Shown here: in pieces, positions 44,905 through 58,810 of the stretch | Layout of the letters: each line of letters opens with the position of its first letter | How positions within the stretch are numbered: position 1 is the stretch's first letter | Assembly: GCA_002255575.1 (NCBI GenBank) | Contig: NCAT01000010.1 | Coordinates: 31,129-95,128, forward strand | Length of the DNA stretch: 64,000 nucleotides | Source of the DNA: Acidocella sp. 20-57-95 | GTDB lineage: Bacteria; Pseudomonadota; Alphaproteobacteria; Acetobacterales; Acetobacteraceae | Reading direction: 5' to 3' | The notes under the pieces: generated by a model | The model's database searches: none | The model's input: only the letters and a program-made list of their open reading frames with translations | What the model was told of the DNA's origin: nothing | Made by a program: the position numbers and the translations under genes

Positions 44905-45374
44905 CCATTGAGCTTGACATAGCCGGGGCGCTGGCCGAACGGCCCGGGTTCCTCATTCGCCGGATGCACCAGATCCATTTGGCTTTGTTTGCCGAAGAAT
45001 GCGCAGCTTTTGATATCACGCCGGTACAATATAGCATTATGACGGTGGCAGACTCCCAGCCAGGGCTGGATCAAGCTCAGCTTGCGTACGAGGTTGGGGT
45101 TGATCGGGCGACTTTGGCGAATGTTGTGGCGCGGCTGGAAACCAAAGGCTTGTTACGCCGCCGGCCATCTGTATCTGATAAACGCGTAAAGCTTGTCTCG
45201 TTATCGTCCCGCGGCGCGGCGTTGCTGGAGAAAATGCTGCTCCCCGTTCAGCGGGCCCATGACCGCACAATCGCCGCTTTGCCGCCAAAAGACCGTGAAA
45301 CATTCATGGCGTTACTGATGCGTTTGGTCAACGCTGAGAATGATTATGGCCGGGCGCCGCTGAAACTAGGCTAA
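44901..45374 (+). CDS. MarR-family transcriptional regulator
   Basis: A 157-residue MarR-type winged-helix protein (MTIELDIAGALAERPGFLIR as start). The recognition helix and wing are in YEVGVDRATLANVVARLETKGLLRRRPSVSDKRVKLVSLS. The ATG at 44901 overlaps the CoxG-fusion stop as ATGA; an upstream reading at 44865 is internal to that gene. Translational coupling to the hydroxylase operon suggests local control of it. The promoter at 40640-40660 contains ACGTACGT and GTATAC, overlapping palindromes that could be its site, although these are weak. Convergent with the formamidase gene with a 4-base overlap. Confidence 0.86.
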   Translation: MTIELDIAGALAERPGFLIRRMHQIHLALFAEECAAFDITPVQYSIMTVADSQPGLDQAQLAYEVGVDRATLANVVARLETKGLLRRRPSVSDKRVKLVSLSSRGAALLEKMLLPVQRAHDRTIAALPPKDRETFMALLMRLVNAENDYGRAPLKLG

Positions 45375-46321
45375 AATAGCCAACCTTTTTTCAGCATTCC
45401 GTGCACGCCTTTTTCCCCATTCACGGTTTGCGTGACGTGGAAATCAACGGCAAGCGAACAGGTTTTATAAGCCTCGATGGGTGTTAAATGCGTGCGGCTG
45501 CAAATAAAATTGATCATTTCACGCAGCGCAATTTGTACCGCTTGGTCTAAATCTTCGTGCATACCCATGCTGATATAGTGGGTTGGCGTTTCCGCCCGTG
45601 GGTACAGCAGTGGTGCGGTGGCAGGGTCCGTTGTCTGGTGGAGAATGAAGGTAAACATACCGTTCAAGCAAATTTCTAAAGCATTCACGCAAACTTCGCC
45701 GTCCCCCTGTATGCCGTGGCCGTCGCCTGCGGAAAAATTTGCCCCTGGAACAAACACCGGCAAAAATAAAGTGCTCCCTGCCGTCAGTTCTCGGTTATCC
45801 AAATTACCACCATGGCTGCGCGGTTCCTTGCTGGAGAGTGCGCCATAAACTGGCGCAGGTGCCACGCCCATCACACCGAAAAAAGGCGAGAGCTCAAGGC
45901 TTGGTCCCCACGGCAACTTCGCGGTGTTGGCGGCACGGTCAACAGGAATATAAGAAATATCTTTTTCAAGGTATTCGGCGGGCAACGTGCCGAGCAGCGG
46001 AAAAATGCCACACCAGCCCCAATCAGCAGCGATTTCAATTTTCTCTATACGTACTTCCAGCGTATCACCCGGCAACGCACCGGCAATGGCGATGGGACCG
46101 GTGATAAGATGCGGTCCCAGTTGCGGTAAGTTGGCATGGTGAATGGCCGCCAGGGCTGGCGGAATCACAAAGCCTGATTCCGGCATTTCGGGCGCACCGC
46201 CTGAAACTGTTTCAACTACCACCGTATCACCGGATTGGATGGTGAGGGATGGGGGAATGCTGGCATCAAAAATACCAAACCGGACTGTTTTGGGGGTGGC
46301 GGGTAGATGATGTGTGGTCAT
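45371..46321 (-). CDS. Acetamidase/formamidase family amidohydrolase
   Basis: A 316-residue FmdA-like protein. Family marks are LTIQSGDTVVVETVSGG near residue 26, TGPIAIAGALPGDTLEVRI near 75, FFGVMGVAP near 145, RSHGGNLDNRELTAGSTLFLPVF near 168 and GDGHGIQGDGEVCVNALE near 195. It releases ammonia from formamide or acetamide. The position, in a convergent pair with MarR and followed by the GMC oxidoreductase with ATGA overlap, fits final ammonia release in the catabolic sequence. Amide specificity cannot be read. Confidence 0.87.
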   Translation of the reverse strand: MTTHHLPATPKTVRFGIFDASIPPSLTIQSGDTVVVETVSGGAPEMPESGFVIPPALAAIHHANLPQLGPHLITGPIAIAGALPGDTLEVRIEKIEIAADWGWCGIFPLLGTLPAEYLEKDISYIPVDRAANTAKLPWGPSLELSPFFGVMGVAPAPVYGALSSKEPRSHGGNLDNRELTAGSTLFLPVFVPGANFSAGDGHGIQGDGEVCVNALEICLNGMFTFILHQTTDPATAPLLYPRAETPTHYISMGMHEDLDQAVQIALREMINFICSRTHLTPIEAYKTCSLAVDFHVTQTVNGEKGVHGMLKKGWLF

Positions 46322-47877
46322 GCGGATGCTCGCGTTGCAATAAAATCAGCCTGCCGAATGGCAAGTGCGACGATGGTAAGTGTTGGGTTGCAGGCACCGC
46401 CACTCGCAAAAGCGCTACCATCGACGATAAAGAGATTTTTCACTTCATGGGTTTCACCGTTACGGTCGACCACGCCGTCTTCCGGCTTCGCACTCATGCG
46501 GTTAGAGCCGAGATTATGACTTGCCGGATAGGCCGGTGCCTCGATGCAGCGCTTGGCGCCGGCCGCTTGATGAATGCCGGTGAGCGTTTTGTAACCATGG
46601 TTGCGCATCAGCAAATCGTTCGGATGATCGTCATAATGTAAATTGGCAATAGGTACGCCAAACGCATCAAGCTCGGATTCGTTCAACGTCACGCGATTGC
46701 CTGGCTGGGGCATGTCTTCGCCGGTCATGAACATGCCAGCCATATGGGCATATTGTTCGATCACGTTGGTAAAATCATAACCCCACCAGCCTGGATTCAT
46801 AAAGGCGGCGGTGGTGGGTAAGCCCATAGCGTTGAGCTCGATATAATAGCCGCCGGCAAAACCGCGTGCGGGGTCATGTTCGGCAAAATCAGCAACGAGC
46901 CCTCCCATCAATTCACCGCGATGCATATTCACCGGCTGATCGAAAATCGACCAAACGGTTTGGATAATATGACGCAGATAGTGCCGCCCGACATGGCCGT
47001 AGCCATTGGCCAAACCATTTGGATAACGGCCGGTTTTTGAATTGAGTAACAGCCGTGGTGACTCGATACAGTTGCCTGCCAAAACCACGATCTTAGCAGT
47101 CTGTTTATGGGTTGTGCCCGCGGCATCAACATAGACAACGCCGTTTGCTTCACCAGCTTCATTATGAAGGATTTGAATTGCCCGGGCACCAGTCCGCAAA
47201 TCGAGTTTGCCGGTTGCCTCCGCACGTGGGATTTCGACATTTAGGGTTGACCAGCGGGCGCCGTGCTTATCACCGGAAACTGAGAAGCCATCTTGGATGG
47301 AGGCAGGGCGGCCATCATAGGGCACGGCATTAATCGCATGGTTGCCGGTCGAGATTTTGGAAAGCCCAAGGCGTTTCGCGCCCCAATACATCACTTTGAA
47401 ATTATTATTGGCGGGAAGCGCGGGCAGGCCGTTGGTGCGGCTAACACCCATCTTGGCTTCGGCGCGTTCATAATAAGGTTCAAGCTCGGACAAGCTGATT
47501 GGCCAATCAATCAAGCTGGCCCCCGGGATATCGCCATAAGTGCTGCGCGCCTTTAACTCATGGTCTTGAAACCGGTAGGTGCAACCGGACCAATGGGTGG
47601 TGGTCCCCCCCACAACTTTGCAGTGCCAGGAGGGTGCGTCGGGAAAGTCTTTCGCGATACGCCAATTTCCGGAAGCTGAACGACGGTCCAGCCATGAAAG
47701 CATTTCATAGGCCGCCCAGTCATCATTTACAAAATCTTCTGCGGTGAGGTGTGGGCCTGCTTCCAGCAGCACCACTTTTAAGCCGCGCTGGCAAAGCTCA
47801 TTGGCCAACGTCCCACCGCCGGCCCCGGAGCCAATAATGACGACTGCATCGGAATCGTTAAAAGCATAGGTTGGCAT
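46318..47877 (-). CDS. GMC-family flavoprotein oxidoreductase
   Basis: A 519-residue glucose-methanol-choline-type enzyme. The dinucleotide fold is VVIIGSGAGGGTLANELCQRG and ends in KVVLLEAG; GGTTTHWSGCTYRFQDHELK is the second GMC block; the catalytic His is in SHNLGSNRMS and a further terminal motif in FIVDGSAFASGGACNPTLTIVALAI. This C-terminal block is typical of gluconate or sorbitol/choline-type dehydrogenases with small subunits. No signal peptide is seen, so it is probably cytoplasmic. Together with the 47886-48401 protein it would oxidise an alcohol group of a substrate or intermediate. Confidence 0.86.
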   Translation of the reverse strand: MPTYAFNDSDAVVIIGSGAGGGTLANELCQRGLKVVLLEAGPHLTAEDFVNDDWAAYEMLSWLDRRSASGNWRIAKDFPDAPSWHCKVVGGTTTHWSGCTYRFQDHELKARSTYGDIPGASLIDWPISLSELEPYYERAEAKMGVSRTNGLPALPANNNFKVMYWGAKRLGLSKISTGNHAINAVPYDGRPASIQDGFSVSGDKHGARWSTLNVEIPRAEATGKLDLRTGARAIQILHNEAGEANGVVYVDAAGTTHKQTAKIVVLAGNCIESPRLLLNSKTGRYPNGLANGYGHVGRHYLRHIIQTVWSIFDQPVNMHRGELMGGLVADFAEHDPARGFAGGYYIELNAMGLPTTAAFMNPGWWGYDFTNVIEQYAHMAGMFMTGEDMPQPGNRVTLNESELDAFGVPIANLHYDDHPNDLLMRNHGYKTLTGIHQAAGAKRCIEAPAYPASHNLGSNRMSAKPEDGVVDRNGETHEVKNLFIVDGSAFASGGACNPTLTIVALAIRQADFIATRASA

Positions 47878-47885
47878 CGCGTACC

Positions 47886-48401
47886 TTACAGATCATTCGG
47901 AAGTGGCGGGAGCCAGTTTAGGTCATCGAAGCCACGCTTGATGTAGCCACCAAGATGATAGGAGGCGCCTTCATACCCGAAGCTCGCCCATATTTCGAGA
48001 TCATCGTATAAATAGCGGACACTCATACGTTGAACGAATATAAATTCTGGCGTTGTCTCGATCGTTTTAAGAGCTGAAATCCTGTAAGTTTCGGCAAGTT
48101 CAGTGAACGAAACAGGAGACGCTGCGCTAAGCTTATCACAAAACGCCAATGATAACCTTGCGGCAGAGGGTGTCTGGCTGGCTAATTTATCAAAATTGAC
48201 CACCACACGGCGGTAAACTGTTGGGGCAACACCACGATGAGGATATAAAGTTTGCACTGTGGCAACCAACAATGTGGCTTGTTCAGGATTGAAGAGATTT
48301 AGGATGTTTGTCCAATCTGGCCCGTCAGATACATGCGGCAGTGGGGGAAGTTTAGGATCTTTATGTGCTGTTACACCGTTTTTAGTGATAGATCTGGTCA
48401 C
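47886..48401 (-). CDS. Gluconate 2-dehydrogenase subunit 3-like small subunit of the GMC enzyme
   Basis: A 171-residue protein. Characteristic elements are LFNPEQATLLVATVQTLYPH near residue 35, a central helical region and the C-terminal GYEGASYHLGGYIKRGFDD with WLPPLPNDL. This resembles gluconate 2-dehydrogenase subunit 3 proteins paired with GMC enzymes. Members usually carry a Tat signal; here none is visible, matching the cytoplasmic look of the GMC partner. The start is unsettled: a GTG at 48401 (GGAG about 12 bases upstream) is used here, while TTG at 48419 is also possible but sits immediately after a terminator T-run. Confidence 0.65.
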   Translation of the reverse strand: MTRSITKNGVTAHKDPKLPPLPHVSDGPDWTNILNLFNPEQATLLVATVQTLYPHRGVAPTVYRRVVVNFDKLASQTPSAARLSLAFCDKLSAASPVSFTELAETYRISALKTIETTPEFIFVQRMSVRYLYDDLEIWASFGYEGASYHLGGYIKRGFDDLNWLPPLPNDL

Positions 48402-48422
48402 GATGCTAAATATCTCCAAAGA

Positions 48423-48454
48423 AAGCCGTTCCGGCTATTGTGCCGGAACGGCTT
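48423..48454 (-). terminator. Rho-independent terminator after the NCS1 permease
   Basis: On the minus strand AAGCCGTTCCGGC pairs perfectly with GCCGGAACGGCTT across a six-base loop, a 13-bp stem. TTTCTTT follows. It lies 16 bases after the NCS1 stop (48470) and before the small-subunit gene, so it probably isolates the permease from the GMC genes. Confidence 0.88.
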
Positions 48455-48469
48455 GTACGCGCGACTAAC

Positions 48470-49861
48470 TTACTCGGCTGCGGCAGTGACCGCAGAAGAC
48501 TTCATCAATGCTTTTGACACGTAGAAATAGAGAGGGCTGACAACGGCAAGGCAAACCACCCACGAGATGTCGGCCCCGCCCATCATTTTCGCAATCGGGC
48601 CGGTATAGAGCGTTTGCGACATGAATGGAATTTCCAGGACAAACCCGAACACGTAGCAAGCAATTGCCGGCCACTGGAAGCGCCCATAGATGCCACCGTC
48701 AGACTTTACGAACGACTCGATATCGTAGGACCCATGGCGGACCAAATAATAGTCAACCAGATTAATGGAGGTCCATGGCACCAAAACGTACAGCAGTACA
48801 TACAGGAAGTTCATGTAATTGGTGAGGAAGTTGGCCTGCCCGACAATGCCCACCACCAAGCCGATGGCAAAGATCAGAAAGCTCATCACCACGCGTGCGG
48901 TTTTACCAGGCATCCAATTGGTTACAAAAGTCTGCACAAAAGTCAGCGCTGCAAGCACGCCGCAATAGATATTCACCGCGGTTGCACAGGCCAATGCGAA
49001 TGTGAAGATGATCACGATTGGAACGGCCAGAAACCCGGATGCATTGGTGAAGCCTGCGACAACATCGCCATTGCCAACAACGATCCCAATCATCGCCCCA
49101 AGAATCTCAGGGAAGACCGAACCAAGTGCTGTGCCCGTATAAGTTGCCCAGAAGGATGGCACCACACCGGTGTTTTCCGGCATGTAGCGCGTGTAGTCCG
49201 AAACGTAAGGCGCATAGGACAATGTCCACAACGCTGCGAGAGACGTCGCGCCGATGAAGTTTGGTAGGGTGTAGGTACCAGTGGACATGAAGGTTTTTGG
49301 TAAGCCAACCGAGAAAACCATCGTGCAAAATACTGCAAACAGCGCGATACCCGTAATGATCGAGACATATTTGCTGTATTCATGGATCAAGTCGTAACCA
49401 TAAACAGCCGCGACCAGGCTGATGACCGCCAAGAAGACCACGCCGGTATTAATGCTGATACCGGAGGCAACCGAGTGAATGGCCTGTCCACCAAGCACCA
49501 TGTTGGAGGATACAAAACCCATATACATCAGCACCACAGCAGCAACGACAACGATTGCACCGACCGAACCAAATTGGCCGCGGGTCTGCACCATTTGTGG
49601 AACGCCTAGTTGCGGCCCTTGCGCTGCATGCAGCGCCATAAAGATGGTGCCGATGATTGTACCCAAAATGAGCGCCAAGCTGCCCGAGACGATGCCCAGG
49701 CCAAACAGGGTTGTGGCAAGCGCGCCAGTGACCACGGTCAGGATGTTCATGTTTGTCCCGAACCAGATGGTGAACAGGTACGAGAAAGTCCCATGACGCT
49801 TGTTTTTGTCGATGGGGTGAATGGTGTTGTGTTCGATAGCAAAAAGCGGCGGGGAATCCAT
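48470..49861 (-). CDS. NCS1-family nucleobase/allantoin:cation symporter
   Basis: A 463-residue permease with about twelve helices. Family signatures are FTIWFGTNMNILTVVTGAL near residue 30, a long helix with FGLGIVSGSLALILG, and TLSYAPYVSDYTRYMPENTG near residue 215. VVAAVVLMYMGFVSSNMVLGG follows the first third. It belongs to the NCS1 group that imports cytosine, purines, allantoin or hydantoins. The terminator at 48423-48454 ends its transcript. AGGAG lies 7 bases before the ATG, preceded by a GGCAG-TTTTT-CTGCC stem. Cargo is probably a heterocycle used by the enzymes encoded on either side. Confidence 0.9.
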   Translation of the reverse strand: MDSPPLFAIEHNTIHPIDKNKRHGTFSYLFTIWFGTNMNILTVVTGALATTLFGLGIVSGSLALILGTIIGTIFMALHAAQGPQLGVPQMVQTRGQFGSVGAIVVVAAVVLMYMGFVSSNMVLGGQAIHSVASGISINTGVVFLAVISLVAAVYGYDLIHEYSKYVSIITGIALFAVFCTMVFSVGLPKTFMSTGTYTLPNFIGATSLAALWTLSYAPYVSDYTRYMPENTGVVPSFWATYTGTALGSVFPEILGAMIGIVVGNGDVVAGFTNASGFLAVPIVIIFTFALACATAVNIYCGVLAALTFVQTFVTNWMPGKTARVVMSFLIFAIGLVVGIVGQANFLTNYMNFLYVLLYVLVPWTSINLVDYYLVRHGSYDIESFVKSDGGIYGRFQWPAIACYVFGFVLEIPFMSQTLYTGPIAKMMGGADISWVVCLAVVSPLYFYVSKALMKSSAVTAAAE

Positions 49862-50162: not shown

Positions 50163-51968
50163 TCATAATTGGGATGGTGGGGCGGGGGCGTTTAGCTTGC
50201 TTGCCATAAAAGCCCGCCAACCGCCATAATGAGTAATGTCCTCAGCCCCTTCAAGTGCGTGTGCTTCACAGAGGAACCCTGTATGCACGGAGCCGTCAGC
50301 TAAAGTGACTTTTCCAATTCCCATCGGTGCGGGCAGCGCTGAAACAAAGCGGCCAAAATTTTCGGCAGTCAGAGACCAAATTTCAATCGCGATGCCGTTT
50401 CCTTGAAAATTTGGCGTTCGTACAAGGCCTGGTTTTGGCGGTTTGGTGCTAAGTGCAAACAATTTATAGTTGCCAGCAGTTGTCGTCTCGGTCACCAACT
50501 TGGCACCGAGAGCTTGTAACTCATGGTTCAGCACCATACCAGAAAGATGGGCGCCAGCCACGACAATGGTTGTTTCAGGCGCGGGGTGTTTGAAGCTGGT
50601 GGAGGGTTTCAGGCAATCCTTACCTGCGCCCGCACCGAGAGAGCGATGCAATGAATCCGCGTAGGCGGCAAGTGAGCTTTCCGTGAACGCTGCGCCGATC
50701 AGGCTAACACCAAAGGGCATACCATCGGGACGGAAACCCACGGGCAATGCGATGGCACCAAGATCCATGAAATTCACGAAATTAGTATAAAGACCAAATG
50801 TCGCATTTTTCGCAAATGGGTCTGCCAACATCTCATCCACCCGGTAGATAGTGGGCGATGTTGGTAGCAATAGCGCATCACATTTCGCGCGTTCAGCCTC
50901 TGCAATACGGCATAAGCGACGGATTCGGTAAATTTCCTGAAATGTATCTGCTGCGCTATATTTTTGGGCTCCTTCAATAATGTCACGCACAACTGGGTGA
51001 AGGGCCTCTGGGTTCGCTGAGAAGAAATCTTTAATCGCAGCCAGCCGTTCTGCAACGAACGGTCCGCCATAGAGCGCAGCGGCGATGGTCTTAAAGGGGG
51101 CGTAGTCAATTTCAACCAGCTCCCAGCCTAAATGTCGGGCGTGCACAAGGGCTGTTTCATAAAGAGCTGCGCAATCTGCATCGCCGGCAAAATCCCGTTG
51201 AGCCGGCGGTAAAACCCCAATGCGCGGTGTGGCGGGCAAGAAAACCTCAGCCGGTGGTCTGGCGTAAGGGTCGGCCTCATCATATCCTTGCAGAATTTTC
51301 AGAATATGAATTGAGTCGCTCGCTGAATTTGCAAAAATGCTAATGCAGTCGAGACTTCGGCAAGCGGGAACGACCCCTGTGGTGGGTATTCTACCAATAG
51401 AAGGCTTGAGGCCGATGAGATTGTTAAATGCCGCTGGCACCCGGCCGGAGCCGGCGGTATCAGTGCCCAGGGCGAACGCGGCAAGTCCGGCACCGACACT
51501 AACGGCGGAACCAGAGGATGACCCGCCTGATACATAGTCTGCATTAAACACGCTGCGCGGCGCACCGTAAGGCGAGCGTGACCCATTCAGGCCGGTTGCA
51601 AACTGGTCAAGATTGGCTTTGCCCAAAAGAATCGCCCCGGCGGCGCGCAAGCGTGCAACGGCGGTGGAATCTATGGCTGGCGTGTAGGCAAAATCTGGGC
51701 AGGCGGCAGTGGTTGGCATGCCTGCCGCGTCGATATTGTCCTTCACGACATAGGGAATACCAAGCAACGGCTTCCTTTCTATATCGGCGACATCCAGGGC
51801 GTTAGCCTGTGCGAGCGCGTCCTCGCGCGATATGCGTGAGATGAACACGGCTTTATCAGCGTACGCCTCAATGCGGTCATACAATGCCGCGATGAGTTCA
51901 GCAGGCGTGAGTGTTCCGGCACGGTAAGCGGCATGGATGGCGGGAATTTCGAGTAAGTCGGGGATCAT
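50163..51968 (-). CDS. atzF: Allophanate hydrolase (AtzF-type)
   Basis: A 601-residue enzyme that hydrolyses allophanate to ammonia and CO2. The N-terminal amidase-signature domain has the catalytic Lys in IPYVVKDNIDAAGMP near residue 75 and the Ser nucleophile motif GGSSSGSAVSVGAGLAAFALG near 150. A C-terminal domain of about 150 residues (from about 455, TTIVVAGAHLSGM) is the AtzF/DUR-specific extra domain. It is the last gene of the riboswitch-led operon, and its ATG overlaps the carboxylase stop by four bases. It finishes guanidine breakdown by cleaving the allophanate made by the deiminase. Confidence 0.93.
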   Translation of the reverse strand: MIPDLLEIPAIHAAYRAGTLTPAELIAALYDRIEAYADKAVFISRISREDALAQANALDVADIERKPLLGIPYVVKDNIDAAGMPTTAACPDFAYTPAIDSTAVARLRAAGAILLGKANLDQFATGLNGSRSPYGAPRSVFNADYVSGGSSSGSAVSVGAGLAAFALGTDTAGSGRVPAAFNNLIGLKPSIGRIPTTGVVPACRSLDCISIFANSASDSIHILKILQGYDEADPYARPPAEVFLPATPRIGVLPPAQRDFAGDADCAALYETALVHARHLGWELVEIDYAPFKTIAAALYGGPFVAERLAAIKDFFSANPEALHPVVRDIIEGAQKYSAADTFQEIYRIRRLCRIAEAERAKCDALLLPTSPTIYRVDEMLADPFAKNATFGLYTNFVNFMDLGAIALPVGFRPDGMPFGVSLIGAAFTESSLAAYADSLHRSLGAGAGKDCLKPSTSFKHPAPETTIVVAGAHLSGMVLNHELQALGAKLVTETTTAGNYKLFALSTKPPKPGLVRTPNFQGNGIAIEIWSLTAENFGRFVSALPAPMGIGKVTLADGSVHTGFLCEAHALEGAEDITHYGGWRAFMASKLNAPAPPSQL

Positions 51969-54900
51969 AGGCGTATCACTCCCAGCCGCTGGCCAGCGCG
52001 GACAACCTGGCCTTTCGCAGCATTGATGTTTGCAATTATGCCAGCAGCGGGGCTGCGCACGGTGACCTCCATTTTCATGGATTCAATCACCATGATGCCC
52101 TGACCGGCCTGCACGCTTTCACCCGGGGTGACCAAAACCTGCCACACGGTGCCGGGCACTGGAGAGGCGATACCCGTGGTCCCCGCGGGAAGTGCGGTTT
52201 CTGCAGGAGCCGGTTCGGGTTCTTTTTCCTCAAACGTATGCAGCCCTTTCGCTGCCCAATCCGCCCGTTCGGCGGCGAACGCGGCACGCTGGGTCGTTTG
52301 GAATGCATCGATTGAGGCAGCATTCTGCGCACAGAAGTTTCGATAATCCTGTAGGCAGAAACTAGTTTCCTCAATCTGTAGCGGGTACTTGCCGTATAGG
52401 AATTTTGCTCGCGCATCCTCCAGCTCCTCATTGGAGACTTCAAAGAAACGTATCTGGTCAAAATGCCGGAACAGCCAAGGGTTTTCAAAAGGTGCGGTTT
52501 GTCGGTGGGTATTCCATACTTGAATTGTGCGGCCAAAAAGCTGGTAGCCGCCGGGGCCTTCCATGCCGTAGATGCACATATAAGCACCACCAATGCCAAC
52601 GGCATTTTGTGGAGTCCATGGGCGGGCAGGGTTGTATTTGGTGGTCACCAAGCGGTGCCGCGGATCGTAGGGCGTTGCAACCGGCGCACCAAGATAGACA
52701 TCGCCTAAACCCAGCACCACGTAGGAAGCATCGAAGATGATGCGTTTGACGTCATTGATGGAACCGAGACCATTAATGCGACGGATGAATTCAATATTAT
52801 CCGGGCACCAGGGTGCGTTCGGGCGGGTGGTTTCCTGGTATTTACGCATGGCGAGCTGAATTTGCGGGTCATTCCAGGACAGTGGCAAATATATAATTCT
52901 GCTCGGCACCACCATATCTTCTGGTTTCGGCATGGTGCTCAGCGTTGCGCTAACCATATCCAGAATATGCGCGCGGGAGACGGCCCCGCTGTCATAATGA
53001 ATTTGTAAACTGCGTATGCCAGGTGTTAAGTCGATTATACCGGGAATTTTCGCTTCATCCAGCGCATCGCGTAGCGCCTGAACGCGCAGTCGCAGCGTGA
53101 AATCCAGTTTCAGATCGCCAAATTCGATCAGAATATTTTCATCACCGGCACGCCGGATTACGATATCGTCGGTCTTTATGAGAATAGCCAGCGCATCATC
53201 AGCACGGATGAAACGCACTTTATCACCGGGCCGTAGTTGACCCATTTTCCAAAGATCATCCTTGGTAATGACCGCCGGGCAGACAAAGCCGCCGAGCGAG
53301 GGACCGTCTGGCCCAAGTAAAATTGGCATGTCACCAGTGAAATCGATCGAGCCAACCGCATACGCGTTATCATGAATATTGGAGGGATGCAGCCCGGCCT
53401 CGCCACCATCTGGCCGCGCCCAGTTTGGCTTGGGGCCGATCAACCGCACCCCAGTGCGGGCGGAATTATGGTGAACCTCATAGGCGGTGGAAAACAGAAT
53501 TTCGATGTCCGCGCTTTGGAAGAAATCCGGTGCGCTATGCGGCCCCGTGCGAACAGCGATTTCCCATTCATGGGTCAGCGTTGCAAAATTTGGGATGGTT
53601 GGCGCAAGCGCGGCATGTGCGTTGGCAAGGCGCAGCGTGTCACCGGCTTTTAGCGTGCTTGTACTATGGCCGCCAAATCCACCCAGGCTAAAGGTGGCGG
53701 TTGAGCCCAGGTAATCATGTGCAGCAAAACCACCAGCGACGGCAAGGTAGCAGCGCTGGCCGGCATTTTTAATGGCGCCAATGTTGAGAATGCTCCCCGC
53801 TTTCACGGACACAGCTTGCTGGTGTGGAACCGCCACGCCATCGAGCATTGCCACCATTTCAGCACCCGCCAGAGCGATGCTGGTGTCAGATTGGAAGCGC
53901 AGAGTTGGCCCGGTGAGCGTCATTTCCAGCGCTGTGGTGCCTGGCGGATTGCCGATCAGCGCATTGGCGGCGGTGAAACTTTTTGCATCCATCGGGCCGC
54001 TGGGTGGAATACCAACTTCCCAATAGCCCAAGCGGCCAGGCAGTGACTGCAGTGATGATTGTGCCCCACCATCCAACACCGCAATGCTGGCGGATTGATA
54101 GTCAAATCCTGCGAGCGTACGGGTCGTCATGGTGGCGTTGGTAAAGACCGGTAGGCCGGTAATTTGCCAGTTGTAATCTGTATTGGTTTCAATACCGCTG
54201 ATTTTTAAAGCGCTCAAGCCATCCCGCAGTTTTGCGATTGCGGCGGTGCGGTCTGGGCCAGATGCAATGAGTTTAGCAACCAACGGGTCGTAATAAGGTG
54301 ATACCTCAGTGCCATTGGCGACCCAATCATCAACCCGCAAACCGGGAGGTGGGGCGTAATGGGTGATGATCCCAGAGGCCGGGCGAAAATTTTCGGCTGG
54401 GATCTCGGCGTAAATCCGCGCTTCAATCGCAGCGCCTTGGGGTATAAGACTATCTTGCAGGGGCAGGGAAAATTCACCTGCTGCTTGGCGGATCATCCAT
54501 TCAACCAAATCCACCCCATACACAGCTTCGGTTACGCCATGTTCAACTTGCAGGCGGGTATTGACCTCTAGGAAATAGAATTTCTGCGTTTCAGAATCAT
54601 ACACAAACTCAACTGTTCCTGCGGATTCGTACGCGCAAGAGGCTGCAATTGCGATGGCCGATTTCTGTAAATCGATGCTGGTCTGTTCGGAGATATTGGG
54701 CGCCGGCGTTTCTTCGATCACCTTTTGGTTGCGCCGTTGCAGGGAGCAATCACGCGTGCCGAGCGAGACCACATTGCCTTTGCCATCACCGAAAATTTGC
54801 ACTTCAATATGCCGCGCCGCGCTGACATATTTTTCAAGAAACAATGCGGCATTGCCAAAATTATTGGCGGCCAAACGCGCGATGCTCTCAAACTTGGTAG

Positions 54901-55429
54901 CGAGTTCAGCATCATCATGGCAGAGCACCATACCGATACCGCCGCCGCCAGCCGAGCTTTTCAGCATCACCGGGTAGGAAATACGTGCTGCTTCCGCCAA
55001 GGCATGTTGTGCATCATGCAGCAGACCCGAGCCTGGGAGCATCGGCACACCAGCCTGCTGTGCCAAGGCCCGGGCCGTATGCTTCAACCCAAAGTCGCGT
55101 AAATGCGCAGGTTGTGGACCAATAAAAGCAATACCGGCGGCCGCCAGGCGCTCTGCAAAAACCACCGATTCAGATAAAAACCCATATCCCGGATGCACCG
55201 CCTGCGCACCGGTCTTCTGGCAGGCGGCAATAATCGCATCGATATTCAAATAGCTTTCCGCCGCTGGGGCTGGGCCGATAAACACCGCTTCATCTGCCGC
55301 CAGCACCGCCGGCGCAAACCGGTCAGCCTCGGAATATACAGCAACCGAAGCGATATTCATGGATTTCAGCGTCCGACAAATACGCGCCAGAATTTCACCA
55401 CGGTTTGCAATGAGGACTTTATTGAACAT
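51965..55429 (-). CDS. Biotin-dependent urea/guanidine carboxylase
   Basis: A 1154-residue multidomain enzyme. An N-terminal biotin carboxylase domain begins MFNKVLIANRGEILARICRT and contains the ATP-grasp KSSAGGGGIGM stretch. Then come two allophanate/urea-carboxylase-type domains: the AHS2-like region around GRLGYWEVGIPPSGPMDAKS and the AHS1-like region near ILIEFGDLKLDFTLRLRV. A C-terminal biotinyl domain has VIESMKMEVTVRSP with the biotinylated Lys. The start at 55429 (GAGG five bases before) gives the canonical N-terminus. The paired deiminase genes and a guanidine riboswitch favour guanidine over urea as substrate, though the decisive active-site residue could not be aligned by eye. Confidence 0.9.
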   Translation of the reverse strand: MFNKVLIANRGEILARICRTLKSMNIASVAVYSEADRFAPAVLAADEAVFIGPAPAAESYLNIDAIIAACQKTGAQAVHPGYGFLSESVVFAERLAAAGIAFIGPQPAHLRDFGLKHTARALAQQAGVPMLPGSGLLHDAQHALAEAARISYPVMLKSSAGGGGIGMVLCHDDAELATKFESIARLAANNFGNAALFLEKYVSAARHIEVQIFGDGKGNVVSLGTRDCSLQRRNQKVIEETPAPNISEQTSIDLQKSAIAIAASCAYESAGTVEFVYDSETQKFYFLEVNTRLQVEHGVTEAVYGVDLVEWMIRQAAGEFSLPLQDSLIPQGAAIEARIYAEIPAENFRPASGIITHYAPPPGLRVDDWVANGTEVSPYYDPLVAKLIASGPDRTAAIAKLRDGLSALKISGIETNTDYNWQITGLPVFTNATMTTRTLAGFDYQSASIAVLDGGAQSSLQSLPGRLGYWEVGIPPSGPMDAKSFTAANALIGNPPGTTALEMTLTGPTLRFQSDTSIALAGAEMVAMLDGVAVPHQQAVSVKAGSILNIGAIKNAGQRCYLAVAGGFAAHDYLGSTATFSLGGFGGHSTSTLKAGDTLRLANAHAALAPTIPNFATLTHEWEIAVRTGPHSAPDFFQSADIEILFSTAYEVHHNSARTGVRLIGPKPNWARPDGGEAGLHPSNIHDNAYAVGSIDFTGDMPILLGPDGPSLGGFVCPAVITKDDLWKMGQLRPGDKVRFIRADDALAILIKTDDIVIRRAGDENILIEFGDLKLDFTLRLRVQALRDALDEAKIPGIIDLTPGIRSLQIHYDSGAVSRAHILDMVSATLSTMPKPEDMVVPSRIIYLPLSWNDPQIQLAMRKYQETTRPNAPWCPDNIEFIRRINGLGSINDVKRIIFDASYVVLGLGDVYLGAPVATPYDPRHRLVTTKYNPARPWTPQNAVGIGGAYMCIYGMEGPGGYQLFGRTIQVWNTHRQTAPFENPWLFRHFDQIRFFEVSNEELEDARAKFLYGKYPLQIEETSFCLQDYRNFCAQNAASIDAFQTTQRAAFAAERADWAAKGLHTFEEKEPEPAPAETALPAGTTGIASPVPGTVWQVLVTPGESVQAGQGIMVIESMKMEVTVRSPAAGIIANINAAKGQVVRAGQRLGVIRL

Positions 55430-55434
55430 AGGCC

Positions 55435-56052
55435 TCAGGAATCTGAAATAATGATTTGAATTGGCGTTGGCTTGAAGCCATTGCACGGGTTATTCACCTG
55501 CGGACAGTTAGATATCAAAACCAACACATCCATCTCGGCACGCAATTGCACATAGCCGCCGGGTTCGGAAACACCATCATCAACGGTTAATTCGCCGTTC
55601 GGGCGAATGGGCACATTCATGAAGAAATTGACGTTGGAGACCAAGTCGCGCTTACCCATGCCATATTTGCCAAGTTCACGTAGAAAATTCTCGCGGCAAG
55701 CGTGCATAAAGCGTGTTTCATGGCCAAAGCGCACGGTGTTGGATTCACAGCTACACGCGCCGGCACAAGTATCGTGATAGCCACATGTGTCATCAGTGAT
55801 GGTCAACATCGGGCGGGCCTCGTTTGAGAGCAGAGCCGAGCCGGTTTCGAGGTAAAATTTCCGCCCCGCTGCCGCCTGCGCTGCCAATGTATCCTGCGCC
55901 GAATAACGCTCTGATGGATCAGCAGCATTATAAAATAGTGCGTCCACCGCCTGTTGGCTTTCCAAGTCAATAATCCGCATGCTCTGGCCCTTTTTAAGGG
56001 TAAAAGAGCACGGTTCGCGGGCGGGTATATAAATATCTTGAATCACGCTCAT
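55435..56052 (-). CDS. Carboxyguanidine deiminase subunit (urea-carboxylase-associated, DUF1989), short paralogue
   Basis: A 205-residue DUF1989 protein. Marks are FTLKKGQSMRIIDLESQQAVD, the cysteine cluster in CGYHDTCAGACS, HACRENFLRELGKYGM and VSNVNFFMNVPIRPNGEL. Two related DUF1989 proteins (often called UAAP1 and UAAP2) beside a urea carboxylase have been shown to form carboxyguanidine deiminase (CgdAB), converting carboxyguanidine to allophanate. I cannot decide which of the two is CgdA. Its start overlaps the stop of the longer paralogue by ATGA, and the carboxylase start follows 5 bases after its stop. Confidence 0.86.
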   Translation of the reverse strand: MSVIQDIYIPAREPCSFTLKKGQSMRIIDLESQQAVDALFYNAADPSERYSAQDTLAAQAAAGRKFYLETGSALLSNEARPMLTITDDTCGYHDTCAGACSCESNTVRFGHETRFMHACRENFLRELGKYGMGKRDLVSNVNFFMNVPIRPNGELTVDDGVSEPGGYVQLRAEMDVLVLISNCPQVNNPCNGFKPTPIQIIISDS

Positions 56053-56831
56053 GCTGCAAAATACTCTTCTGTATTGATAAAGCCGCGCTTTGCTTCATCG
56101 GAGAATGTCCGGCAAAGATCATCCGGGCTCGGTGGCGGGGTTTGATAAACCACAAAGCTGATGGGACCGGTGGCTTGCGTCTCGGTGCTCAGCGCGTGTG
56201 GTGTATTGGAAAGAGCGATCAGCAAATTCATCTCTGCCCGCAATTCTACCATTGCCCCTGCCGGCGGCGGCGTGAGGTGTAAGCGGCCGTTTTCATCAGC
56301 CGTCAGCTTTGAAAATAGGCTGATGCTCGGCCCGACATCGGTTCGGGTAAGGCCAAATTTTGCAGCCGCCAAGCGCAAATTATCGCGCCCGTTGCGGCCC
56401 GCCCCAGTTTGTACCGGACTATTCGGGCCAATAATGCTATCATGCCCCGCTTTATTATCCGCGGTTATCGAGGCCAGGACACGCCCCATGTCGGAGAATA
56501 ATACACGCCCGGTGGTCAGCACTGTTGTCCATTGAAGTTTCACCGTATCGCCGGAATTATAGCGCTCTGAGGTATCCTCAGCATTCCACATAAACAACGC
56601 CGCACCTGGTGTACCGGTTAGGTTGGTAATGCGAATGGCGCTACCGCGTTTTATCTTGATCGCCACATAGTTTCCTGGTGGGATCACATCTTTTTTGATA
56701 ATCCCCGCTTCGGGAATCTCCGTTATCGCAGCTATACTTGGCAGGTTGGCCGCCTTGTTACGGGCAGCCTCCTGTAAGGCTTCATAGCGCGCCCGGTATT
56801 CGGCTGGCGTTAATTTATCAAGGTCGATCAT
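56049..56831 (-). CDS. Carboxyguanidine deiminase subunit (urea-carboxylase-associated, DUF1989), long paralogue
   Basis: A 260-residue DUF1989 protein with an N-terminal extension (LTPAEYRARYEALQEAARNK). The shared core is IKIKRGSAIRITNLTGTPGAALFMWNA in shape, visible as KRGSAIRITNLTGTPGAAL, and ERYNSGDTVKLQW. The cysteine cluster of the short paralogue is absent here; the equivalent region is NKAGHDSIIGPNSPV. The two subunits are thus clearly diverged, with the metal site probably in only one of them. Cotranscribed with the glutamine synthetase gene (12-base gap). Confidence 0.86.
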   Translation of the reverse strand: MIDLDKLTPAEYRARYEALQEAARNKAANLPSIAAITEIPEAGIIKKDVIPPGNYVAIKIKRGSAIRITNLTGTPGAALFMWNAEDTSERYNSGDTVKLQWTTVLTTGRVLFSDMGRVLASITADNKAGHDSIIGPNSPVQTGAGRNGRDNLRLAAAKFGLTRTDVGPSISLFSKLTADENGRLHLTPPPAGAMVELRAEMNLLIALSNTPHALSTETQATGPISFVVYQTPPPSPDDLCRTFSDEAKRGFINTEEYFAA

Positions 56832-56843
56832 GCGATCATGTCC

Positions 56844-58211
56844 TTAGAAAAATTTCAGGTAGCGTTCGCGTTCCCAGTTGGAAACATGGTGGCTGAAGCT
56901 GTTCCACTCATCGCGCTTATAGTCCAGCCAGGCTTTATACATCGATGGCCCAAGTACCACACTGCTCATGCTGTCAGTGGCAAACGCATTCAGCGCTTCA
57001 TCAAGGGACCCTGGTAGGCTTTGAATCCCAAGTGCTGCCAAATCTTCTGGTCCTTTGAGGTACATATTTTCATAGTTGGGCGCCCCTGGGTCCAGTTTCT
57101 GCTCAACACCTTCAAGGCCAGCAGAAAGAACCATCGCGGCTGCCAGATACGGGTTGCAGCTACTATCAGCCGCACGTAATTCCACACGCCCGCCACCCAT
57201 GGGGATTCGCAGGGCATTGGTACGGTTATTGTTGCCATAGCAGCAAAGGACTGGCGCCCAGGTAAAGCCTGAGGCACTGCCTTGCTTAATCAGGCGCTTA
57301 TAGCTGTTCACCGATGGTGCCACCATCGCGCAAATGGCCGGCAGATGCTTCAGAACACCCGCGATGAAATGATAGCCCAGTTGCGAAAGGCCGCAACCTT
57401 TTGGATCGTTCTTGTCTTTGAAGAGGTTCTCACCGGTCTTCAAATCCGCGAGCGACATATTAAAATGCGCGCCACTGCCAGCACGGTCTGCGTAAGGCTT
57501 GGGCATAAAGCTGGCAAACCCGCCATGCTTGCGGGCAATCTCGTTCGCCATCATGCGGAAAAATACATAGCGGTCCGCCATCGTCAGCCCGTCCGCATAA
57601 TTAAAGTCTATCTCAAACTGCCCAATGCCGTCTTCATGGTCGAATGAGTACACATCAAAGCCAAGCTGATCCATCGCGGCAACCAGCTCTTTAATCCAGG
57701 CGAAATTATCTAAAAGGCGGGATAAATCATAAGCGGGTTTGGCTAAATGTTGGCGGTCTGAAAGCGGGGCGTAGCCGCCATCTGGCGTATCTTTCAGCAC
57801 GAAAAACTCAGCCTCGATGCCGAAATTAAACTTGTACCCAAGTGCTGCGGCGCGGGCCAATTGCCTTTTCAATATGGTGCGGCTGCAAGCTTCAAAAGGG
57901 GCTCCTTGGTAGTGAAGGTCAGATGCATACCAGGCGATCGTTGGTTCCCACGGCAAAATATTGCAGGAGGCAGGGTCTGGCATCGAGCAGACCTCATCAT
58001 CACTCACCGCCTGCGGCACGCCGTCTAGCGCAGCCCCCGTGAACATCTCAGAGCCCGCCATCATTTGGGCATGATGAGTGATCGGCGTCATTTTGGTTTT
58101 TGAGACGCCATGCATATCCACATAGCTCGCCACACAATATTCAACGCCAATGGCAGCCAAAACGCTCGCATCGCTACCATCCGGACGCGCGGTTCCAGTC
58201 AAAGACTTCAT
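56844..58211 (-). CDS. glnT: Type III glutamine synthetase-like enzyme (GlnT)
   Basis: A 455-residue glutamine synthetase-superfamily protein. It starts MKSLTGTARPDGSDASVLAA. The catalytic Glu motif is FGIEAEFFVL near residue 132, the central Glu in GIGQFEIDFNYADG near 203, the ATP-binding region SGAHFNMSL near 265, NSYKRLIKQGSASGFTWAP near 321 and the ligand-binding ADSSCNPYLAAAMVL near 371. The length and these motifs fit the GlnT (type III) group. It is the first gene of the guanidine-riboswitch transcript, so it probably assimilates ammonia from guanidine, although other glutamyl acceptors cannot be excluded. AAGGA lies six bases before the ATG. Confidence 0.87.
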   Translation of the reverse strand: MKSLTGTARPDGSDASVLAAIGVEYCVASYVDMHGVSKTKMTPITHHAQMMAGSEMFTGAALDGVPQAVSDDEVCSMPDPASCNILPWEPTIAWYASDLHYQGAPFEACSRTILKRQLARAAALGYKFNFGIEAEFFVLKDTPDGGYAPLSDRQHLAKPAYDLSRLLDNFAWIKELVAAMDQLGFDVYSFDHEDGIGQFEIDFNYADGLTMADRYVFFRMMANEIARKHGGFASFMPKPYADRAGSGAHFNMSLADLKTGENLFKDKNDPKGCGLSQLGYHFIAGVLKHLPAICAMVAPSVNSYKRLIKQGSASGFTWAPVLCCYGNNNRTNALRIPMGGGRVELRAADSSCNPYLAAAMVLSAGLEGVEQKLDPGAPNYENMYLKGPEDLAALGIQSLPGSLDEALNAFATDSMSSVVLGPSMYKAWLDYKRDEWNSFSHHVSNWERERYLKFF

Positions 58212-58249
58212 AAGATTTCCTTGCTAATTTGAAAATTTGTGGTCTGCAT
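58208..58249 (-). CDS. 13-codon leader ORF in front of glnT
   Basis: GAAGGAG lies six bases before an ATG at 58249. The ORF reads MQTTNFQISKEIL and ends with TGA that overlaps the glnT start as ATGA. It lies between the riboswitch and glnT on the same transcript. The strong ribosome-binding site and exact overlap suggest translational coupling, but a chance ORF is possible. Confidence 0.5.
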   Translation of the reverse strand: MQTTNFQISKEIL

Positions 58250-58328
58250 CGCCGGCTCCTTCAAGTACACAACAACCTTGAAACGAAGCGGCATAACAGA
58301 GGGCGCATGCAACTTCGCATCAAAACGC

Positions 58329-58433
58329 TCTCCCGGGCTTTTGTCCCGCCGTGTACTCTACGGATGTCTCCCGCAAAGCTGTTGCTCTCGGACCAGTCAC
58401 CGGACAATTGTCCGGCCGGAACCCTAGCGACTG
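58329..58433 (-). ncRNA. Guanidine-I (ykkC) riboswitch
   Basis: Read on the minus strand, all diagnostic blocks occur in order: CTAGGGTTCCG at the 5' end, a variable stem with the perfect palindrome CCGGACAATTGTCCGG, then ACTGGTCCGAGAGC, a variable stem, ACGGCGGGACAAAAGCCC with GGGAGA at the 3' end. This is the classical ykkC subtype 1 aptamer, which turns on downstream genes when it binds free guanidinium. It starts about 7 bases after the transcription start predicted from the sigma-54 site and ends 118 bases before glnT, controlling glnT, both deiminase subunits, the carboxylase and atzF. Confidence 0.94.
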
Positions 58434-58443
58434 CAAAACATCA

Positions 58444-58459
58444 TGCTAGAATCGTGCCA
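58444..58459 (-). promoter_or_regulatory. Sigma-54 (RpoN) promoter of the guanidine operon
   Basis: On the minus strand TTGGCACGATTCTAGCA, with GG and GC separated by exactly ten bases, matches the -24/-12 consensus YTGGCAC-N5-TTGCW in all but one conserved position (TAGC for TTGC). Transcription would begin near 58434, just before the riboswitch. A TATAAT box lies upstream at about 58463-58468 as an alternative sigma-70 element. A TGCACC half-site typical of NtrC is found at 58629-58634, about 180 bases upstream. Confidence 0.72.
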
Positions 58460-58810
58460 ACATTATACCTGCGAAGAATTTAATCTTCTGGCAGATAATG
58501 GCCTGAACGATGCGCGAAACCTGTCCGTTAAATAGGCTGAATGGCTAATTTAAGGTCGTTTGAGAATTGTTGGTGATTAATCCAACGCTGCTTAGGCATC
58601 TGCCGAAAACCACCCGCGATCGATAAAATGCACCGCGCGCGTACGTGGGCTAGACTGTAGCGTATCGAGCGCCAAGCCGATGATTTGGGCGCGCACCCTG
58701 CGCTTTGTATTCGCCTAACCCGGTTTAAGTTTGATTTTGATGACTACCCACAAAGACCAAGTGTCTAACAACACACAAACGAGCCACCCAATCGGCGCGC
58801 TGAGCGGGGA
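58460..58810. other. 351-bp upstream region of the guanidine operon
   Basis: Intergenic DNA between the sigma-54 site and the end of the photolyase-type gene. Apart from a TATAAT-like box near 58465 and an inverted repeat GTTGG-N8-CCAAC at 58569-58586, both of uncertain relevance, I see only a TGCACC half-site at 58629 that could belong to an NtrC binding region. No gene. Confidence 0.4.

Follow-up and report, generated by a model that had tools for sequence, protein, structure and literature searches.

A sigma-54-type promoter element joined to a guanidine-I aptamer in the leader of a predicted guanidine carboxylase operon of Acidocella

A promoter element, an aptamer and an operon at one locus

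In a 64,000-nucleotide stretch of Acidocella sp. 20-57-95 (contig NCAT01000010.1, positions 31,129 to 95,128; hereafter the window), a guanidine-I riboswitch aptamer precedes a compact run of genes on the minus strand, and a sigma-54-type promoter element lies directly upstream of the aptamer. The aptamer is followed by a ligase gene of the glutamine synthetase (GS) family, UAAP1, UAAP2, a carboxylase and an allophanate hydrolase, with gaps or overlaps of at most 12 bases if the carboxylase starts near 55429. In order of transcription, the features are:

58444..58459, minus strand: sigma-54-type -24/-12 element TGGCACGATTCTAGCA, from the sequence; score 21.0 of 22.5, tied best in the window
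58433, minus strand: predicted +1, 12 nt after the -12 position; the 5' strand of aptamer helix P1 begins one base further on
58328..58438, minus strand: guanidine-I aptamer RF00442, model positions 1-107
56844..58211, minus strand: GS-family gamma-glutamyl ligase (TIGR03105 type III), GmaS-like; TIGR03105 547.8 bits, cut-off 469.6
56049..56831, minus strand: UAAP1, predicted carboxyguanidine hydrolase subunit; TIGR03425 224 bits, cut-off 205.95
55435..56052, minus strand: UAAP2, predicted carboxyguanidine hydrolase subunit; TIGR03424 315.5 bits, cut-off 284.7
51965..55486, likely start near 55429, minus strand: biotin-dependent carboxylase, predicted guanidine carboxylase; TIGR02712 1689.4 bits
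50163..51968, minus strand: allophanate hydrolase (AtzF); TIGR02713 744.4 bits

A sequence-only reading of this DNA had called a ykkC aptamer here, and an Infernal search (cmscan) bore it out: the RF00442 match at 58438..58328 on the minus strand spans the full model and scores 86.5 bits (E 4.5e-14) against a gathering cut-off of 63. It is the sole RF00442 match in the whole assembly (3.04 Mb, 102 contigs), and no other riboswitch, guanidine-II included, was found by cmscan in the 64-kb window at Rfam cut-offs. The genes downstream (UAAP1, UAAP2, carboxylase and AtzF) are those expected for a guanidine-I riboswitch. The rule that tells guanidine from urea carboxylases by an Asp or an Asn presumably refers to residue 1330. 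In the window's carboxylase the motif GSIDFTGD places an Asp opposite the Asn of yeast urea carboxylase (GAINFTGD, 3va7), and according to the accessible text of PMC12186494 Asp marks guanidine carboxylases where urea carboxylases have Asn; by this signature the enzyme is predicted to be a guanidine carboxylase.

The -24/-12 element, also named in the sequence-only reading, has its GG and GC dinucleotides at the correct sigma-54 spacing, and the start which that reading placed at 58434 agrees with our value of about 58433, derived from the spacing to the -12 position. Taken alone, the element is weak. It ties with two others for the top score among the 28 matches of at least 19 in the 64 kb. 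Two details at the locus also weigh against a sigma-54 promoter, namely a -12 box that reads TAGC, not TTGC, and a perfect TATAAT at 58467-58462 (minus strand) just upstream of the -24 box. Because a single element of this kind would be weak by itself, the case for the promoter rests on recurrence.

The element recurs upstream of guanidine-I aptamers

We gathered 111 guanidine-I aptamers, 20 from the window's family, five from loci of named relatives, 46 from the rest of its class and 40 from other classes; the group labels (Acetobacteraceae family, Alphaproteobacteria class, and other classes, mainly beta and gamma) were inferred from named relatives. The genome sets were samples of 299, 385 and 398 out of larger groups, the 20 family aptamers coming from 16 of the 299 genomes. 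Left out were G542:C347:1-102, an aptamer at a contig end with no upstream DNA, and duplicates of G000, G339 and G404. The Rfam cut-off was passed by 104 of the 111 aptamers, and the counts below refer to these; among the seven sub-cut-off ones set aside, two carry the element, one at -30 and one at -156. An element was called at a score of at least 19 within 300 nt upstream.

By this measure, a sigma-54-type element lies upstream of 86 of the 104 guanidine-I aptamers of the phylum: 21/25 in the family (named relatives included), 28/39 in the rest of the class and 37/40 in other classes or, counted by genomes with the element, 18/20, 27/37 and 24/27, respectively. The element was contained in 228 of 5035 random 306-nt windows (4.5%) and was found at none of 30 guanidine-II aptamers of the same phylum, these being the best 30 of 96 matches. 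On these figures, chance was rejected as an explanation of the -24/-12 match. In the window's class the element occupies -35..-15 in 49 of 64 loci, as compared with 18 of 5035 random 36-nt windows, and every class positive (49/49) sits in this range. For 49 class elements scoring at least 19.5 (a slightly different set, including one sub-cut-off locus), the predicted +1 falls at model positions -4 to +7. All 37 positives of the other classes lie at -49 to -99. These other-class loci (among L072-L122) have about 23-73 extra bases between predicted +1 and aptamer, and many of their leaders carry CACCACAATnTG-like letters right before P1. The four family aptamers that have no element make up two back-to-back pairs (G037, G008).

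Several points weigh against reading these counts at face value. The weights and the threshold of the element score were set by us, 18 of the 104 aptamers have no element at that threshold, and kinship among the sampled genomes inflates the counts. The search range was widened from -60 to -300 after most other-class loci had given no match, which took these loci from 6/40 at -60 to 37/40 at a score of at least 19 (36/40 at 19.5 or above). As to the control, 10 of the 30 guanidine-II aptamers have guanidine-pathway genes downstream and may be internal to guanidine-I operons, needing no promoter of their own.

The TATAAT could be the -10 hexamer of a sigma-70-type housekeeping promoter that drives the operon, leaving guanidine as sole control and the -24/-12 match as incidental. 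We regard this as very unlikely: the hexamer is perfect and only a few bases upstream of the -24 box, but a scan of 58100-58800 returned no sigma-70-type site with a -35, the TATAAT there lacking a matching one, and TATAAT occurs within 60 nt upstream at just 2 of the 111 loci, as against 86 of 104 for the -24/-12 element. As a conserved promoter, TATAAT was rejected on this count.

The union of sigma-54 control and guanidine-I sensing put forward in the sequence-only reading is strongly supported (86/104 against 0/30). It is not confined to this locus or to a GS-family lead gene: the element also stands at loci where an ABC-importer, UAAP or permease gene comes first. The pairing is real and general, and the window offers one example of it, in which the lead gene is unusual.

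All 111 loci were also labelled by downstream gene using tblastn. The element is present in 77 of 90 ABC/carboxylase loci and in 5 of 7 permease-led loci, and in 0 of 5 EamA-transporter loci (all five sub-cut-off) and 0 of 3 arginase-type loci (Fisher p 1.3e-6 for ABC/carboxylase against EamA plus arginase loci, relatedness ignored). The EamA and arginase families were confirmed by Pfam for one member each. The tie to ABC/carboxylase loci fits a role of the element in the use of guanidine as nitrogen source. Against this stands that the arginase label is visible only given enough downstream DNA, at least 3 kb of which was at hand for 33 of the 111 loci; two of the three arginase loci were labelled only thanks to 3 kb downstream.

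The survey brought up further gene contexts. The sub-cut-off RF00442 matches before EamA-type transporters, at L071, L125, L126, L127 and L129 and without a sigma-54 element, are perhaps another ykkC variant. A guanidine-I locus, L011, holds a fatty-acid-desaturase-family protein (Pfam PF00487), and L105, L106, L113 and L119 hold one by similarity to that of L011, after a second type of substrate-binding protein; this protein is possibly a guanidino-compound hydroxylase. A sigma-54 element and guanidine-I stand before a TonB-dependent-receptor-like gene at L054 (Plug domain) and L049 (by similarity), a possible route of outer-membrane guanidine uptake, and before a metallo-beta-lactamase-fold hydrolase (PF00753) at L024.

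Candidate activators of the promoter

The genome contains rpoN (PF04552, 219 bits) and ntrC (688.5 bits, cut-off 558.6), as well as a second NtrC-family regulator at C78:135683, which at 355.6 bits falls under the ntrC cut-off. A first scan for the dyad GCAC-N5..8-GTGC found it at 9 of the 37 other-class loci and at none of the 51 class loci (background 3.5%). A de novo search for 4-base dyads yielded GCAC-N7-GTGC, which we take to match the NtrC consensus, upstream of 10 of 37 other-class loci (background 1/429, or 9/898) and at none of the 51 loci of the window's class. Within the class, TGCC-N9-GGCA, presumably akin to the Rhodobacter NtrC site, was found at 8 of 51 loci (background 7/604, or 23/1212 windows), and the relaxed form YGCC-N9-GGCR at 17 of 51, versus a background of 10.7%. 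The window's upstream region holds GGCA-N2-TGCC at -166, and the same 10-mer is found at four other loci.

We infer that the window's sigma-54 promoter is active and that NtrC is its activator. Two observations count against the latter. Upstream of the window's promoter, no NtrC-like dyad of either pattern is suitably placed, and YGCC-N9-GGCR is a loosened version, chosen once the strict dyad had come out of these very loci. The promoter may be real and yet respond to another bacterial enhancer-binding protein, in which case its signal would not be general nitrogen limitation. The missing dyad, the 0/51 for GCAC-N7-GTGC in the class and the presence of the second NtrC-family regulator speak for this possibility; it is nonetheless improbable given the dyads found de novo (10/37 other-class loci, and 8/51 class loci against 23/1212 in the background; both presumed NtrC sites) and an operon whose enzymes release ammonia.

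Predicted folds and a mini-ORF in the leader

Between aptamer and ligase gene, the leader holds two candidate hairpins and a short open reading frame (mini-ORF), the last of which, like the TATAAT, goes unmentioned in the sequence-only reading:

58298..58333, minus strand: hairpin A, which takes up the 3' tail of the aptamer, a probable part of the expression platform; from the consensus fold of 17 loci
58251..58292, minus strand: hairpin B, which pairs the AGGAG Shine-Dalgarno sequence of the mini-ORF (58260-58256); from the minimum free energy and centroid folds
58208..58249, minus strand: 13-codon mini-ORF MQTTNFQISKEIL, AGGAG 11 nt upstream; its stop overlaps the ligase start as ATGA

In hairpin A, GGGAGAGC pairs with GCTCTCC-like letters, and 96.6% of 203 cells are paired in the 17 loci, compared with 30-52% when slid. 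Hairpin B is weak on its own evidence. No intrinsic-terminator-like site was found on the minus strand in 58100-58800, and this, together with hairpin A and the pairing of the Shine-Dalgarno sequence in hairpin B, points to translational control. Known guanidine-I operons are switched on by guanidine, and the same ON polarity is presumed here. The folds themselves also supply counterarguments. Both sides of hairpin A have changed in merely 2 of 12 pairs, i.e., there are few compensatory changes, and the window's platform region folds no better than shuffles (z-score -0.65). Moreover, a two-state accessibility model, with the aptamer tail free or held, gave no clear opening of the Shine-Dalgarno sequence (mean 0.29 to 0.31, up in 11 of 17 loci; the L011 start used was one base off).

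In the window, the mini-ORF runs from an ATG at 58249 to a TGA ending at 58208, and the ligase ATG is at 58211. The 21 element-bearing family loci comprise nine that are importer- or permease-led, 11 comparable ones led by other genes, and L007, which ends too early to classify. Each of the 11 has a mini-ORF of 13-60 codons, whose start codon stands 182-198 nt from where the aptamer begins. In all but L013 (10 of 11), the stop of the mini-ORF overlaps the start of the next gene, for example as TGATG in L006b and ATGA in L024. Among the importer- or permease-led loci, six have their likely start codon at 182-200 nt, counted from the aptamer start, and the close relatives L015, L016 and L019 have it at 225; some of these loci also hold in-frame starts further upstream. 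The mini-ORF starts were picked by us among several candidates, that of L011, at 198, having no detected Shine-Dalgarno sequence. Nor are the 11 loci independent, as L002, L003, L004 and L006 share one lead gene and L009, L017 and L006b another. In a shuffle test of the overlap, the null rates were 0.4-0.8 for the scorable loci, a result conditional on frame and start context and no proof.

Translation of the ligase would be coupled to that of the mini-ORF by this arrangement. One feature argues the other way: an AGGA stands 10 nt ahead of the ligase ATG itself, so this gene may do without the mini-ORF. The riboswitch could also act by transcription termination, the mini-ORF being fortuitous, and the Vreelandella guanidine-I switch is called presumably transcriptional in the available text of PMC12508155. 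For the window we think termination unlikely, given that no terminator-like site was found on the minus strand in 58100-58800 and given the recurrence of a start at 182-198 nt with a stop/start overlap in 10 of the 11 loci; translational control is the reading followed below.

The lead gene resembles glutamate--methylamine ligases

The lead gene had been read from the sequence as glutamine synthetase, and its NCBIfam family, TIGR03105, bears the name type III glutamate--ammonia ligase. Its best solved relatives are two glutamate--methylamine ligases, 9qur (401 bits) and RhGmaS, 7cql (317 bits), the other 38 sequences scoring at most 251 bits. Where the aligned GlnA-type protein of the same genome reads FDGSS and GFEAP, the lead gene's product reads FTGAA and SGFTWAP; Asp50 of GlnA is thereby replaced by Thr and the Glu-flap glutamate by Trp. 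RhGmaS likewise has a Trp at the Glu flap (Trp300) and no Asp50, according to the accessible portion of PMC7948447. Over the amine-pocket positions compared (Gln175, Asp177, Glu179, Glu186 and Asn188 of RhGmaS), Asp177, Glu179 and Glu186 are kept, Gln175 is Ser and Asn188 is Asp.

Identity as GlnA was rejected on the two replacements, and the name glutamine synthetase could not be upheld, since the protein has neither Asp50 nor the Glu-flap glutamate and its two best-scoring solved structures are those of glutamate--methylamine ligases. We predict a gamma-glutamyl amide ligase, similar to glutamate--methylamine ligase, and not the main ammonium-assimilating GlnA. That the gene is nevertheless a true glutamine synthetase fixing the ammonia from guanidine is quite unlikely. 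The family name and score (547.8 bits) favor it, and a 66%-identical relative at L172 adjoins a gene for the ammonium transporter AmtB, but the active-site replacements, the gap in bit score to the other solved sequences and the presence of a separate, better GlnA-type gene among the six GS-family genes of the genome are set against it. So is the substrate preference reported for RhGmaS, with a Km of 8.7 mM for NH4Cl versus 27 uM for methylamine in the part of PMC7948447 available. Another of the six, 41% identical to the lead gene, lies in what looks like an N-methylglutamate synthase cluster, judged by its sarcosine-oxidase-alpha-like gene. Because this cluster elsewhere in the genome has its own GmaS-like gene, the lead gene is not, by position, the genome's methylamine GmaS.

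Relatives of the lead gene were found in genome contigs of three Acidocella, one Acidiphilium and one proteobacterial metagenome-assembled genome. Three genes separate the aptamer from the ligase in four Acidocella/Acidiphilium loci (L002, L003, L004 and L006): first a phosphoesterase-like gene, then an APC permease and last a nucleotidyltransferase-like gene. The ligase of these loci is 74-78% identical to the window's; the gene families were tested in L002, where only the permease passes the Pfam cut-off. Between the window's aptamer and ligase there is no room for these intervening genes. Eight class relatives at 59-69% identity have no guanidine-pathway gene in the fetched stretches. Their neighbours were identified by Pfam for three (L170, L172 and L176, 59-66% identity), and creatininase-family genes adjoin the ligase at L170 and L176. 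The idea that ligase relatives generally sit in guanidine operons was rejected: of 19 other matching genomes 11 contexts were fetched, and none has a guanidine-I aptamer over the cut-off. Among these 11, only G578 (L177) had UAAP, carboxylase and AtzF genes. In that genome, the ligase gene (52-53% identical) precedes a guanidine-II aptamer by 0.7 kb on the same strand, and UAAP1, UAAP2, carboxylase and AtzF come after the aptamer. Here guanidine genes and a ligase of this kind occur together for a second time.

Other neighbours complete the picture. A MetX-like hydrolase stands between ligase and UAAP1 in the guanidine operons of L005 and L006, and a relative (L146:7140-8024) lies beside the GmaS-like cluster of the window's own genome. 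Beyond atzF in the window, 301 nt behind it and on the same (minus) strand as the operon, 45371-49861 holds an NCS1-type permease, a family-less protein of 177 residues, a GMC oxidoreductase and an acetamidase/formamidase-family gene.

Discussion

The sigma-54-type element and the guanidine-I aptamer probably form a two-key gate on the predicted guanidine carboxylase operon, and this is our best explanation of the locus. When nitrogen is short, sigma-54 RNA polymerase, probably driven by NtrC, would start the transcript at the aptamer's first helix, P1. Guanidine binding would then release a sequestered ribosome start site, and only with both signals present would the operon be made. Its enzymes would convert guanidine to carboxyguanidine and on to allophanate, giving three NH3 in all. 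An AND gate of nitrogen limitation and guanidine is likely.

A wider proposal is tentative, and we lean slightly towards doubting it. As a rule, guanidine-I in Pseudomonadota would be the RNA half of a sigma-54/NtrC promoter, and the nitrogen regulon would include guanidine assimilation as a branch under two keys. Promoter and aptamer would be welded together in Alphaproteobacteria, with the transcript starting at P1. Acetobacteraceae would add to this module a start codon that is gated and sits at a nearly constant distance, and mini-ORFs would serve as adaptors for unrelated genes. In the window, the gene plugged in would be a gamma-glutamyl ligase for an amine from guanidino compounds.

These findings bear on the question of why bacteria need a guanidine sensor. 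If the guanidine-I loci of assimilation belong to the sigma-54/NtrC regulon and the EamA, arginase and guanidine-II loci do not, promoter type would help to tell loci that treat guanidine as food from those that treat it as poison, and would also predict when each guanidine locus is on. The result would also be a natural AND gate within a single leader.

Comparison with known systems

Sigma-54 control has been predicted before for genes of COG3665, which we take to be the UAAP/DUF1989 family. A 2025 survey (PMC12316311) predicts it, in its accessible text, for 102 COG3665 genes of the alpha, beta and gamma classes (59% carry the name urea carboxylase) and for glutamine synthetase generally; in that portion the word guanidine is absent, riboswitch occurs only in a reference title, and no link to an aptamer or start-site geometry was seen. 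Among the matches listed from a search of openly licensed literature (titles and abstract openings), none joined guanidine-I with sigma-54, and the main texts of two rhizobial start-site maps (PMC4842269, PMC3616915) contain neither guanidine nor ykkC.

The guanidine carboxylase operons of Raoultella, Klebsiella and Vreelandella share the aptamer class and the enzymes (gca, cgdA/B, atzF) with the window, as far as the available parts of PMC12186494 and PMC12508155 describe them. In those operons the gene after the aptamer encodes an ABC importer, and gca has a guanidine-II switch before it, whereas in the window a GmaS-like ligase leads and guanidine-II is absent at the Rfam cut-off. RpoN and NtrC do not appear in these two papers, in which 'sigma' occurs only as a supplier name.

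For the ligase, the nearest known enzymes are GmaS (7cql, 9qur), its best solved relatives, with which it shares the Trp at the Glu flap and the lack of Asp50. Unlike RhGmaS, it has Ser for Gln175 and Asp for Asn188, and its gene is not beside the genome's N-methylglutamate synthase-like cluster. For the leader, the closest parallel is the ppe2 B12 riboswitch of M. tuberculosis, where, in the text accessible for PMC11260477, a short ORF is under the control of the aptamer and ends in an AUGA overlap with the start of the gene. The ppe2 switch is an OFF switch for B12, proven by experiment, whereas the window's leader carries a guanidine aptamer and is known from sequence alone. Guanidine leaders differ from ppe2 in a further respect: here the overlap recurs before five kinds of lead gene.

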